Part shown: positions 32,585 to 37,689 of the stretch, one piece after another
How positions within the stretch are numbered: position 1 is the stretch's first letter
How the letters are laid out: each line of letters begins with the position of its first letter
Origin: Polyangium fumosum
GTDB lineage: Bacteria > Myxococcota_A > Polyangia > Polyangiales > Polyangiaceae
Length of the DNA: 64,000 bases
NCBI RefSeq assembly: GCF_005144585.1
Contig: NZ_SSMQ01000001.1
Span: forward strand, 62,001-126,000
Direction: 5' to 3'
Program-made: the position numbers and the translations under genes
Notes under the pieces: model-generated
The model's input: the letters and a program-made list of their open reading frames with translations, nothing else
Told to the model about the DNA's origin: nothing
Database searches by the model: none

Positions 32585-32642
32585 GGGGAGGTTCAGGCAG
32601 GAGGGAGAGGGGAGGGGGGCGGGGTCGTCGAGCGGCCGAGCG

Positions 32643-33149
32643 TCAGCCCTGGGCCTTCGCGTCTGCGTCCTCGGCAGCGTCCGCCTTGGCGCTCTTCGTC
32701 CGCGTCTTGACGCCCTTCTTCGCGATGGCCGACCGGTAGGTCCGCGTCTTCTCGTATTTCGCGAGCAGGTGTTTATCGTTCGTCGTCTTCGCGCGGCGCT
32801 CGATCGAATCGGCGAACGCGTTCACCTGCCGCTGCCTTTTGTCGTCCTCGAGCGCCCGCGTCTCTTCCATCATTTCGACGAGCTTCTTCAGGGCGGGCAA
32901 ATGCGCGTCGATCATCCCGACGCGGTGGTTCGACTCCTGGAAGGCCTCGATATCGGATTTCGTGATGCCGGCTTTGTCGCCGAGGAGGGCCTGGTTCGTG
33001 AGGATCTCGGAGACGACCTCGGGGAAACCTTCTTGTTCCGAGCACATCCCCAACCGGGCGCGCGGCGGCAGATCGACGAGGAAGGGCGCGAACGCGGTGC
33101 AATCATGGACGAGCGTGTCGAGCGCGACAGGCTCCAAGGGATTCGGCAT
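32643..33149 (-). CDS. Hypothetical helical protein
   Basis: A 168-residue protein of unknown function, mostly helical, with a Lys/Ala-rich C-terminal tail (residues 140-168) that could bind nucleic acid. The start MPNPLEPV at 33147-33149 has GGAGGAG 9-12 bases upstream. There are no hydrophobic segments and no recognised motif. A 21-bp tandem repeat tract begins 140 bases upstream of the start, an arrangement also seen upstream of the helical protein at 59679-60557. Confidence 0.65.
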   Translation of the reverse strand: MPNPLEPVALDTLVHDCTAFAPFLVDLPPRARLGMCSEQEGFPEVVSEILTNQALLGDKAGITKSDIEAFQESNHRVGMIDAHLPALKKLVEMMEETRALEDDKRQRQVNAFADSIERRAKTTNDKHLLAKYEKTRTYRSAIAKKGVKTRTKSAKADAAEDADAKAQG

Positions 33150-33288
33150 GATGGGATCTCCTCCCCGAAACCGGGGGGAACGGGTGCATTGCAACTCCAC
33201 GCGCAACGGCGCGAGCAAGGTGTGGACGATGTGCACGGCGGATTTATTCGTAGGGGGAAGGGGCAGGATCCTGCTCGCGGGGAGGGGG

Positions 33289-33582
33289 AGGCCGCGGGCG
33301 GGGTCGGCGAGGTTGCCCGCGGCGTTCTGGGGGCCGCGCGCGATGTTCCGGGGGCCGCGGGCGGGGTCTGGGAGGTCGTGCGCGGCGTTCCGGGTGCCGC
33401 GGGCGGGGTCGATCGATGTCGCGGGCAGGGTCTACAATGCCGTACGCGGCTTCCGCGAGGCCGCGGGCGGGGTTTGGGAGGCCGCGGGCAGGGTTTGGGA
33501 GGCTGCGGGCGGGGTTTGGGAGGCCGTCGGCGGCTTGCATGCTGCCGCGTGCAAGCTTCACGAAGCCGCGGGCAGGGTGGTG
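33289..33582. repeat. Fourteen tandem 21-bp repeats in a divergent intergenic region
   Basis: Fourteen consecutive 21-bp units in a strict register (units begin at 33289, 33310, 33331 and so on to 33562). The best conserved three are at 33457-33519, with the core CCGCGGGCGGGGTTTGG. Outer units drift, and some alternate with a CGCGGCGTTC form. The tract fills most of the 577-base gap between the start of the minus-strand hypothetical gene (33149) and the neprosin-like gene (33727). In three frames it would encode heptads such as EAAGGVW, but no start or signal supports translation. The flanks (33150-33288 and 33583-33726) show no other feature. Confidence 0.85.
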
Positions 33583-33726
33583 CGATGCTGCCCGCGGCTT
33601 CGCCGAAGCCGAGGGCGGCCTCCTCGATGCCGCCCTCGGACCACGTGTGTCAGAGACGCTGCCCCGCCCAAGCCTTCCGAGCCAGTGGTGTTGATCCCCA
33701 CGCCGTTACCCACGTATTCTCGGAAG

Positions 33727-35091
33727 ATGCGAAGTACCCAGCTCTTGGAGGCGGTTTCGATTGTCCTGATCACGCACCTCCTCAGCGGGTGCGTGATTCG
33801 CTTCGGTCCCCTCGACGAGGAGGGGAACGAGGAGCGCCCCACGCTGCCGACGCCGAAGCCGCCGGGGGGCGGCACGCCTGCGCCGAGCGAGGACGAGCCC
33901 GTGCTCGACGACGCCGCGAAAGCGCGACAAGCCGAGGTCGAGGGGTACATCTTGGAGGTGATCTACCAGGGCGCCAGCATCGTTGATTCCTACGAGCTCC
34001 CGTCGGGCGATATCGTCGATTTCCTCGACCGGAGCATGCTCCCGGACCTTCCGTACGAGCCACCGGTGTTGCCGTTCTCGCCGGAGGAGCTGACGCTGCC
34101 GCCGGGCGTGGAGCTCGGCGTGAGCGAGCTGGAGCAGGTCCCTGAGCTTTGGGCCCTCGCAGAGACGGCCACGCCCATGACCCGGCCGAGCTTCTGGCCC
34201 TACGTCCTCGGCGAGACCGACGCCACCTCGCTCCTGGACTACCTCGACCGCTACCAACTGGGCGGGGCGCCCGCCGGCAGTGAGCACATCCACGCCGGGG
34301 TCTCCGTCGACGTCCCGAACCGCGGCGTGGGCGGCTTCATGAACCAGTTTCGTCCGGACGTGCAGCCGGGCAGCTTCAGCCTCATCGAGTTCGCCGTCGG
34401 CTGCCCGGCCGAGGGCCCGCTGCAGGAGGTGGTCGGCGTGGTCATCTCCATCGACAAGGTGAACGGCTTTGGCAAGAACAATACGACGCTCACGGACAAC
34501 CACGCGCGGCTGCACGTCGAGTATGCCGTAACGAACCCGAGCACCGGGAAACTCGAGTACACGTGGGACCACAAGGATGGTAATTTCGTTCCAAACAAGT
34601 TGCCCCATCTTCATTATCCCGGGGAAAACGTGGAGGTCTCGGAGATCGGCGGGAAGCAGGTCGAGCATCTCCTCGCCATCTACCAGGATCTGTTCGGCAA
34701 CTGGTGGATCGCATACCAGGGGCACATCCTGGGGCATTATCCGGCGAAATTGTTCAAGTCGCTCAACAGCGAGGCGTGCCGCGCGGACTGGTACGGCGAA
34801 GTCGCCCGGTTCAAGCCGAAGACGCCCATGGCCTGGCCCGCGACGGAGATGGGCAGCGGGAAGTTCCCCAATATCAACGATACGTCGAACACGGCCTACG
34901 TGCGTAATCCTGTATTCTTGAGTTCGTACGTGGCCATCGAGCCTGCGGAGAACATGGTGATCCGCCCGTTGACGAAGAAGCCGCTTTGCTACGATCACTC
35001 GGACTTCAACGACGGCAGCATCCTTGGAGATCGTCTCTTCTATCTCGGAGGCCCTGGAACCAAGAACAATCCGGCGTGCGTGTTGCCATGA
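33727..35091 (+). CDS. Neprosin-family prolyl endopeptidase-like lipoprotein
   Basis: A 454-residue exported protein. The signal peptide ends in LITHLLSGC (lipobox near residue 20) and is followed by a Pro/Thr/Glu linker to about residue 65. The C-terminal half has the neprosin (DUF239) pattern: NWWIAYQGHILGHYPAKLF, then ADWYGEV with Glu358 at a position corresponding to one of the two catalytic glutamates, and MGSGKFP. A preceding strand pair (LHVEYAV, KLEYTWD) fits the same fold. Plant neprosins are acid glutamic proteases that cut after proline; here secretion to the surface for prey or protein digestion is an inference. The frame is open upstream through the repeat tract, but ATG 33727 is chosen because it gives the signal peptide. 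Confidence 0.8.
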   Translation: MRSTQLLEAVSIVLITHLLSGCVIRFGPLDEEGNEERPTLPTPKPPGGGTPAPSEDEPVLDDAAKARQAEVEGYILEVIYQGASIVDSYELPSGDIVDFLDRSMLPDLPYEPPVLPFSPEELTLPPGVELGVSELEQVPELWALAETATPMTRPSFWPYVLGETDATSLLDYLDRYQLGGAPAGSEHIHAGVSVDVPNRGVGGFMNQFRPDVQPGSFSLIEFAVGCPAEGPLQEVVGVVISIDKVNGFGKNNTTLTDNHARLHVEYAVTNPSTGKLEYTWDHKDGNFVPNKLPHLHYPGENVEVSEIGGKQVEHLLAIYQDLFGNWWIAYQGHILGHYPAKLFKSLNSEACRADWYGEVARFKPKTPMAWPATEMGSGKFPNINDTSNTAYVRNPVFLSSYVAIEPAENMVIRPLTKKPLCYDHSDFNDGSILGDRLFYLGGPGTKNNPACVLP

Positions 35092-36423: not shown

Positions 36424-37689
36424 ATGACAACTTCGGTTACAGTGCTGGGACTTTTTTCGAAGTCCTGGCCGATGTCCTCTTTCCGTCAACATCTCCTGTG
36501 GTTCCCGGCGGCTTGGCTCGTGGTGCTCGCGGCGCCGGGGGTGGCTGCGCAGGGCACCCCGACGTCGCCGACGCCTTCTCCAAACACGCCGACGCCTTCG
36601 GGAGCATCGGGCGCACAACCTCCACCGACCGGTTCGACGCCACCACCGACCGGTTCGACGCCACCGCCGACCGAGTCGACGCCACCGCCGACCGAGTCGA
36701 CGCCGCCGCCGACCGAGCCGACGCCACCGCCGACCGAGTCAACGCCATCACCGACCGAGCCGACGCCACCGCCGCCCCCACCCGCGCCCATCGCCCCCAA
36801 GCCCACGCCCGCCCCGGAGCTGACGAAGTTCCAGGTGCAGTCACACGCCTACAGCGGCTTTCGGTGGCCGGGGTACACCGTGGGGGCCAGCATCCGCGGC
36901 GGCGGCGGTATGTTCGGCTCTTCCCTCGGCCAGGGCAATCCGCTCGTCACCGGGTACCGCTTCGTCGAGCGGGGCGGCTTCATCTCCGGCTTCGTGGTCG
37001 GCGGCATCTTTTATCTGCTCGGCGCCACCGCGGCGAGCATGCCGGACTCCACCAGCGTCTCGACCTCGTCCTATCTGCGCACGAACAACCGCGGCGAAAC
37101 CGAGCGGGTCACCACCACCACGTACACCGCGACCTCCAGCAGGAGCGCCGCAGAACGCGAGGCCGCCCTCGAGGCCGCCGGGGAGGGCGCCAAGGGCCTC
37201 ATCGCCTATCGCCAGCAATCCTTCGAGCTCGACGTCTTCACCCGCAAGTGGTTCGGCTCGGACCTCGGCGACGCCCGCGGGTATCGAATGAACTTCCTCT
37301 TCACCGTCTACACGGGGAAACGATTCATCCTCGAGGGCGGGTTCGGCTTCGGCGACGTCAGCGCGATCGTCCCCGGCAAGGACATCCTCGTCGAGGAGAA
37401 GTACGTCGGGATCCCGGTCCGCTTCATCGTCCCCTGGGGCCCGTTCTACGCCCAGGCGGCGGTCGACCTGAACTTCCGCGGGCTCGACTTCGGCCTGCTC
37501 GCGGACGACGAGATCGAGACGCGCGAGGTGGACGGGCGCCGCATGCGCGTGGACCCGGTAAGGCCGATTCCGCTCACGATCTCGGTGAATGCGATGCTCT
37601 GGCGGCTGCACCTCTCGGTGGGCGTGGAGACGGCGCGGCCGTGGACGGGCCAGTTCGGGTATGTCGCCACGGCGGGGGCGAGGTTTTAG
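36424..37689 (+). CDS. Outer-membrane beta-barrel-like protein with proline/threonine repeat
   Basis: A 421-residue exported protein. A hydrophobic signal (LLWFPAAWLVVLAAPGVAAQ) is followed by seven PTESTPP-type heptads (residues 68-116) and a Pro/Ala run. From about residue 140 the protein has alternating aromatic strands (YSGFRWPGYTVGASI, MNFLFTVYTGKRFILEGGF) and ends in VATAGARF, a C-terminal Phe typical of outer-membrane barrels. The proline-rich segment may span peptidoglycan. It precedes a second barrel-like gene by two bases. Confidence 0.7.
   Translation: MTTSVTVLGLFSKSWPMSSFRQHLLWFPAAWLVVLAAPGVAAQGTPTSPTPSPNTPTPSGASGAQPPPTGSTPPPTGSTPPPTESTPPPTESTPPPTEPTPPPTESTPSPTEPTPPPPPPAPIAPKPTPAPELTKFQVQSHAYSGFRWPGYTVGASIRGGGGMFGSSLGQGNPLVTGYRFVERGGFISGFVVGGIFYLLGATAASMPDSTSVSTSSYLRTNNRGETERVTTTTYTATSSRSAAEREAALEAAGEGAKGLIAYRQQSFELDVFTRKWFGSDLGDARGYRMNFLFTVYTGKRFILEGGFGFGDVSAIVPGKDILVEEKYVGIPVRFIVPWGPFYAQAAVDLNFRGLDFGLLADDEIETREVDGRRMRVDPVRPIPLTISVNAMLWRLHLSVGVETARPWTGQFGYVATAGARF
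36625..36771 (+). repeat. Seven 21-nt coding repeats (PTESTPP heptads)
   Basis: Seven in-frame 21-nt units starting at 36625 encode PTGSTPP (twice), PTESTPP (twice), PTEPTPP, PTESTPS and PTEPTPP. The period equals that of the non-coding tract at 33289-33582. Slippage here would change only linker length. Confidence 0.85.

Follow-up and report, generated by a model that had tools for sequence, protein, structure and literature searches.

A 21/22-bp tandem dyad array beside an orphan gene family in Polyangium fumosum

An intergenic array between divergent genes

The window, a stretch of 64,000 nucleotides of DNA from Polyangium fumosum, of the Polyangiaceae in the Myxococcota (assembly GCF_005144585.1, contig NZ_SSMQ01000001.1, positions 62,001 to 126,000 of the forward strand), carries a tandem array between two divergent genes, a hypothetical gene on the minus strand (ATG at 33149) and a neprosin-like gene on the plus strand (ATG at 33727), in agreement with the first-pass annotation of this DNA (Table 1). 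We refer to the hypothetical gene on the left of the array, and to its family, as MPNP, a label taken from its first residues; proB and OmpA-like are likewise working names for neighbour genes. Other genomes, contigs and loci are given by our own handles (G, C and L).

Table 1. Features of the array locus in window coordinates
Feature	Position	Strand	Description	Evidence
Tandem array	33267..33643	.	17-18 units; 18-bp dyad + 3-4 bp linker	TRF, autocorrelation, segmentation
Leader, array to MPNP	33150..33266	-	Conserved in 9 aligned relatives	Alignment A4
MPNP-family gene	32643..33149	-	168 aa, basic C-terminus; constant array partner	ORF, paralogue family
Neprosin-domain lipoprotein gene	33727..35091	+	Optional, recurrent neighbour of MPNP + array	Pfam PF03080, E 8.8e-23

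The array had been described as fourteen units held in an exact 21-base register over 294 bases. A tandem array does lie at this position, since a TRF call at 33286-33533 (periods 21 and 63) agrees with autocorrelation over 33289-33600, where lags 21, 42 and 63 score 0.58, 0.56 and 0.56 and the remaining tested lags stay at 0.24-0.45. These peaks exclude random GC-rich sequence, the outcome that would have undone the original observation. The real array is longer, however, with 18 units by chained motif segmentation (the first of them weak), and the fourteen units form its middle. Nor is the register exact: fifteen spacings are 21 bp and two measure 22 bp, at 33393-33415 and 33562-33584, and thus neither a 21-base register nor a reading frame is kept through the array. 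We further note that the extra base of the 22-bp spacings often lies in a GATC linker between units (window 33393-33415, and L023, L024 and L027). At window 33562-33601, neighbouring units contain a perfect 12-bp inverted repeat, GAAGCCGCGGGC / GCCCGCGGCTTC, both arms of which are changed in G004.

The 18-bp unit consensus, GAnGCCGC(SS)GCGGCnTC, derives from 201 units of eleven related arrays, aligned with a palindromic consensus that fixes the register and not the composition. Columns G7 and C12 each reach 98% in these units, and the column frequencies are mirrored about the centre. The profile excludes L017a, L022 and L029, which have a differing unit, and the unit statistics exclude L025 (three units) and L028 (one unit). 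When arrays are segmented without a palindromic prior, dyad symmetry is found at p<0.05 relative to column shuffles in 21 of 41 arrays and in two of seven arrays added later, or 23/48 overall. The other 25 arrays do not reach p<0.05, the p value of L242 being 0.95. Because of these 25 arrays, and because the arrays are partly non-independent, we describe the dyad as common and not universal.

Within individual units, the position pairs 3/16, 4/15 and 9/10 match well below shuffle level, the pair 8/11 matches above it (z 3.6, or z 2.0 on unique units), and the remaining pairs lie near it. This pattern is more in keeping with half-sites that would be recognised separately on duplex DNA than with an RNA hairpin in each unit. 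Such a hairpin was rejected, with three pairs below shuffle, only 8/11 above and no consistent compensation. The array as a whole folds as RNA far better than its shuffles (z -5.0 in the sense direction to MPNP and -7.7 antisense). A simple scan of 32600-33800 in this window found no Rho-independent terminator, and Rfam gave no match up to E 1 for 32900-34000. In the leader, a CCCC..GGGG inverted repeat overlies the MPNP ribosome-binding site GGGGAGGAG, as if translation of MPNP were controlled through it. In the alignment, GGGGAGGAG is the 3' arm of this inverted repeat in 9/9 leaders (window 33150-33185, minus strand).

The MPNP family and same-period arrays across genomes

MPNP paralogues number 11-15 matches per genome in the six Polyangium genomes, and further members occur in G008, G043, G050 and G055, which gives a total of 10/98 genomes of the taxonomic family. 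A profile search of the class finds MPNP in 6/144 genomes, namely the genome of the window, G055 and four genomes of another family. In each of these four, MPNP is a single-copy gene and the array is present (4/4); indeed, an array is present at all five MPNP matches that this search found in other genomes. For the closest MPNP members the array starts about 110-200 bp upstream of the gene in 8/8 cases. The G004 orthologue of the array, 76% identical, also stands before MPNP, as do several other arrays. Distant paralogues have arrays of equal period with unrelated units, also within one genome.

This association extends well beyond background. An array with a period near 21.5n lies upstream of 34/43 MPNP genes versus 22/848 random genes (16/558 in G004 and 6/290 in G043), where an array is a TRF call of at least 70 bp in the 750 bp upstream, or as much of it as was available, with genes from a rough gene caller. 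The 43 genes are those with sequence at hand among about 102 detected. They include all 13 members of G000 (ten array-positive) and nine of the ten members of G043 (six array-positive), and the result therefore does not rest on close relatives. Among genes with any upstream tandem repeat by this definition, 34/34 MPNP genes show this period versus 22/54 control genes. The nine of 43 without an array by this definition are L078, L094, L099, L100, L107, L108, L109, L126 and L127; arrays lie about 0.9-1.6 kb upstream of the MPNP gene at L107 and L109, and only 407 bp upstream were examined at L127. Gene and array are also absent together at one locus: MPNP and its array lie at the proB locus in G000, G004 and G001, and in G002 an OmpA-like gene follows proB after about 45 bp (start placed by eye), with both MPNP and the array absent.

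In the MPNP protein the N-terminal part varies, and a basic segment towards the C-terminus, YRSxxAxKAAKTRxKN, is conserved. No model of Pfam, NCBIfam or PADLOC is matched by more than two of 33 members, the best single family match being ZorA (E 3.2e-4, one member of 33), and the MPNP profile finds nothing below E 0.08 among solved structures. No recognised DNA-binding domain emerged from any of these four sources. AlphaFold2, given five close sequences, returned a helical model of poor quality (pLDDT 62, pTM 0.32), and a fold search with it gave no match at E<1. That MPNP itself binds DNA is a guess.

Across 26 MPNP loci, the neprosin-like gene apart, MPNP alone recurs at three or more unrelated loci. 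The two genes that the first-pass annotation had named as neighbours of the array differ in standing: the family of the hypothetical gene is the constant array partner, and the neprosin-like gene is an occasional third. The latter has seven matches in three of the six Polyangium genomes, of which four adjoin MPNP and an array, and three of these four sites, the window among them, share the divergent layout. In G001, the neprosin-like genes on C13 (80% identical) and C4 are divergent from MPNP with a 21/22-bp array between, and on C22 the two genes are codirectional and the array precedes MPNP. All three elements thus stand together three times in one congener (L259, L260 and L261); the MPNP genes at L259 and L260 have arrays and fall outside the 34/43 count. 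At L262, L263 and L264, neprosin-like matches occur with neither MPNP nor an array, and an in-frame query found no neprosin-like gene at six other MPNP or proB loci. With four of seven genus matches adjoining MPNP and an array, we rejected the view of the neprosin-like gene as a chance neighbour; it is a recurring, though optional, companion of the pair.

Across 48 arrays, 424 of 678 spacings are 21 bp, 225 are 22 bp and 29 have other values, under a count that allowed 16-28 bp equally and without penalty. Many of these arrays were chosen for such a period, so that the 649/678 spacings of 21 or 22 bp measure the sharpness of the register and not its frequency. At least one 22-bp step occurs in 34/41 arrays. 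The period was also sampled in G004 in 40 evenly spread 20-kb pieces (800 kb in total; lags 10-110, 68% identity over 130 bp), with multiples of three set aside, where coding repeats fall. All 13 frame-breaking lag hits lie at 22, 43 or 86 (one, seven and five, respectively), hits that represent at most about eight arrays, and 8/68 eligible lags lie within 1 bp of 21.5n. The corresponding hits within 1 bp of 21.5n number 5/15 in G043, of another genus, and 1/3 in G031; G050 was set aside, as every frame-breaking lag hit there, probably through a masked run. By TRF, 10/15 apparently non-coding arrays of at least 150 bp in the 800 kb of G004 have period 21, 42 or 43 (a possible ORF overlaps two of the ten, in L117 and in L131), as do 6/10 in G043 with periods 21, 22, 42 or 43, and 0/4 in G031. 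None of the ten G004 arrays lies at any listed G004 MPNP position, and extrapolation from them gives about 165 such arrays per genome.

A wider search for 21-bp arrays, which had been proposed at the outset, thus finds same-period arrays to be numerous in the genus, and they are not confined to promoters. They occur in every gene orientation, 7/33 of them between convergent genes according to a rough gene caller that errs in the window too. Arrays of the same unit class as the one in the window also lie away from MPNP genes, some of them between convergent genes, and a promoter-only role was rejected as a general rule on this account. The array profile model R1 finds arrays in 6/6 Polyangium genomes and, under stricter filters, isolated matches in 3/57 non-Polyangium genomes of the family, from three other genera; these isolated matches have four units or none by scan and are uncounted.

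Searches with the array model also meet a false friend. A coding 21-bp tandem array lies in the window at 36622-36809, where PPPTEST heptads occur in a protein taken for OmpA-like, and a G002 relative of this protein contains TSSAPST heptads (L065 6159-6512). L065, from a locus without MPNP, was rejected as a further array, its repeat encoding heptads of the OmpA-like protein.

Conservation and turnover of the units

Comparison of the orthologous arrays of G000 and G004 indicates that the unit positions vary to very different degrees. Positions 7 and 12 differ in 0/34 cases, positions 4, 5, 14 and 15 in 9/68, the other motif positions in 24/136, and the free positions and linker in 43/117. The array as a whole diverges more than the leader, which differs at 12/138 positions between the two genomes. 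By unit position modulo 3, the differences number 16, 19 and 23 of 102. The invariance of positions 7 and 12 supports constraint without proving it, because conversion between units would freeze invariant columns.

Some variation is confined to particular genomes. In the eleven-array set, the half-site GAnGGYGY accounts for 0.35-0.50 of half-sites in four G001 arrays, located at four loci (one of them before MPNP), and for 0-0.07 in seven arrays of four other genomes. The change is not genome-wide, since L076, a fifth G001 array that stands before a close MPNP gene, belongs to another unit class with a consensus that lacks the half-site. A permutation test of within-genome unit similarity is not significant (p 0.06); the half-site count alone clearly differs. 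Either a shared binding protein with changed specificity or exchange between loci would explain this pattern.

Three G004 array sites compared across six genomes display turnover. Arrays are present at the first site in G004 and G000 only (2/6) and at the second in G004 only (1/6), where the neighbourhood differs in the other genomes. At the third site, 43-bp arrays stand in G004, G000, G002 and G001, and G003 retains a remnant of two 42-bp copies; here the sister species G000 and G004 carry unrelated 43-bp units beside a flank that is 96% identical. Units are homogenised within arrays. At L150 (about 1660-2026; G004 C1, around 12.9017 Mb), the start of a 43-bp array adjoins TTTCACGTGAAA, a palindrome that is present in 6/6 species, accompanied by a 43-bp array in four, and that we take to resemble a ParB site (parS).

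Interpretation and comparison with known systems

We favour, with confidence just short of even, a reading in which the array is a helically phased series of dyads that presents one face to a dimeric DNA-binding protein and is inherited with the MPNP gene as one module. About 17 dyad sites spaced two DNA turns apart would let such a dimer cover a single face along about 380 bp. Most likely the protein would load cooperatively into an extended nucleoprotein complex, which might control MPNP and, in the window, possibly the divergent neprosin-like gene as well; alternatively, the complex may mark or organise DNA in the way of plasmid centromere repeats. A plain promoter operator would not account for everything, because arrays of the same class occur without MPNP, some between convergent genes, and a structural, centromere-like or nucleoid role fits these MPNP-less arrays at least as well.

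A more specific and rather unlikely version holds that MPNP and array form a new two-part element, in which each MPNP recognises only its own array, with the spacing fixed and the letters free. It takes the binding protein to be MPNP itself, each paralogue reading its own array, which is speculative. Each genome would then carry roughly a dozen orthogonal pairs of protein and array. The neprosin-like protease would serve as optional cargo or as an optional effector, and arrays without MPNP would be orphan or trans-bound copies.

The most serious competitor to the phased dyad array, though we consider it unlikely, is a mutational origin, in which the arrays are selfish, functionless minisatellites with fast birth and loss and a unit length set by amplification on protein-coated or supercoiled DNA. 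The ten same-period arrays that lie apart from MPNP in the 800-kb sample of G004, the occurrence of arrays in all gene orientations, the turnover at the three tested sites and the homogenisation of units within arrays are all as expected under it. It leaves unexplained, however, the excess upstream of MPNP genes (34/43 vs 22/848), the arrays that accompany MPNP in different families, the lack of both gene and array in G002, the invariant dyad core and the GAnGGYGY half-sites of the four G001 arrays. Far less credible still is the heptad-peptide coding repeat, decayed or cryptic, that the first-pass annotation had offered beside an array of protein sites on one DNA face. The period near 21 and the real heptad arrays nearby (PPPTEST at 36622-36809 and TSSAPST at L065) speak for it, but the two 22-bp steps break any frame in this array, 22-bp spacings make up 225/678 overall with at least one in 34 of 41 arrays, 43-bp arrays occur elsewhere, and the orthologous differences follow no codon-position pattern or clear third-position excess. 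A coding repeat was thus rejected for this array, and the 21/22 spacing, the dyad and its invariant core make the other suggestion, one-face protein sites, preferable, with protein binding itself remaining our inference.

An RNA role is improbable, at a level between the mutational and the coding explanations. Here the array would be transcribed towards MPNP, its repeats would act like a type III antitoxin RNA, and MPNP would be the protein partner. The layout of array, short leader and gene of about 165 aa resembles type III systems as described in PMC5086642, the leader is conserved, the array RNA folds better than its shuffles, and the pair 8/11 exceeds shuffle level. Against this, the antisense strand folds more strongly, the pairs 3/16, 4/15 and 9/10 fall well below shuffle, the simple scan of 32600-33800 revealed no Rho-independent terminator, the 33 MPNP members gave no ToxN-like family match, similar arrays lie between convergent genes, and the 21/22 spacing suits the phase of the DNA helix.

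Several known repeat systems resemble the array in part. It does not have the identical repeats and unique spacers of CRISPR, as its units follow one another directly, with linkers of 3-4 bp. REP/BIME elements are intergenic palindromic clusters, found also at the 3' ends of genes, with a shared consensus within a genome. The array is likewise intergenic and palindromic, and such arrays also occur at 3' ends of genes; here, in contrast, the period is constant and distant arrays have unrelated units. Some arrays share a unit class, but no palindrome consensus is shared across the MPNP paralogues of one genome.

The nearest system in form is the F-plasmid centromere, which has twelve 43-bp repeats with ten 16-bp inverted repeats as described in PMC6238139. 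The likeness, on that description, lies in helically phased tandem repeats with dyads and in the 43-bp length, which is the commonest frame-breaking period in G004. As in ParABS systems, the arrays offer dyad sites in helical phase (649/678 spacings at 21/22; dyad in 23/48 arrays). Unlike these, the 26 MPNP loci have no linked parA and parB by gene sharing and no conserved parA-like neighbour on the same measure, MPNP gives no ParB-type family match, and each genome holds many arrays with unrelated units. Because par genes do not recur beside the arrays, we do not file the array as a centromere member. In pSM19035, arrays of parS heptads are bound by its ParB, and several copies are needed (PMC9499535). 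The account given there is of contiguous short repeats, as here, with units of 7 bp; no ParA partner was seen for the array in the window.

In type III ToxIN/AbiQ systems, RNA repeats of 34-36 nt in 2.8-5.5 copies precede the toxin gene, and within families the repeats diverge in sequence and copy number but keep their length (PMC5086642). The parallels to that description are an array placed immediately ahead of a gene of about 165 aa and a repeat length that is kept as the sequence diverges. The present arrays differ in a repeat length of 21-22 in mostly about 10-20 copies, in occurring also without the gene, and in the lack of a terminator in the scanned part of the window (32600-33800) and of a toxin family match; no ToxN, CptN or TenpN family toxin is among the listed Pfam, NCBIfam and PADLOC matches of the 33 MPNP members.

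A literature search, at the level of search results, returned no report of such arrays in Polyangium or other myxobacteria. To our knowledge, no described system consists of tandem arrays with free sequence and a fixed helical period that are tied to an orphan gene family across families of a class. The recurrence of equally spaced arrays, often with quite different letters, before relatives of MPNP suggests that the gene and its array are an undescribed pair. If the period is mutational, tandem duplication in these bacteria would be quantised by the DNA helix. If instead the arrays bind protein, they would provide a natural series of matched protein and DNA-array pairs in which to follow the joint divergence of binding specificity and site.
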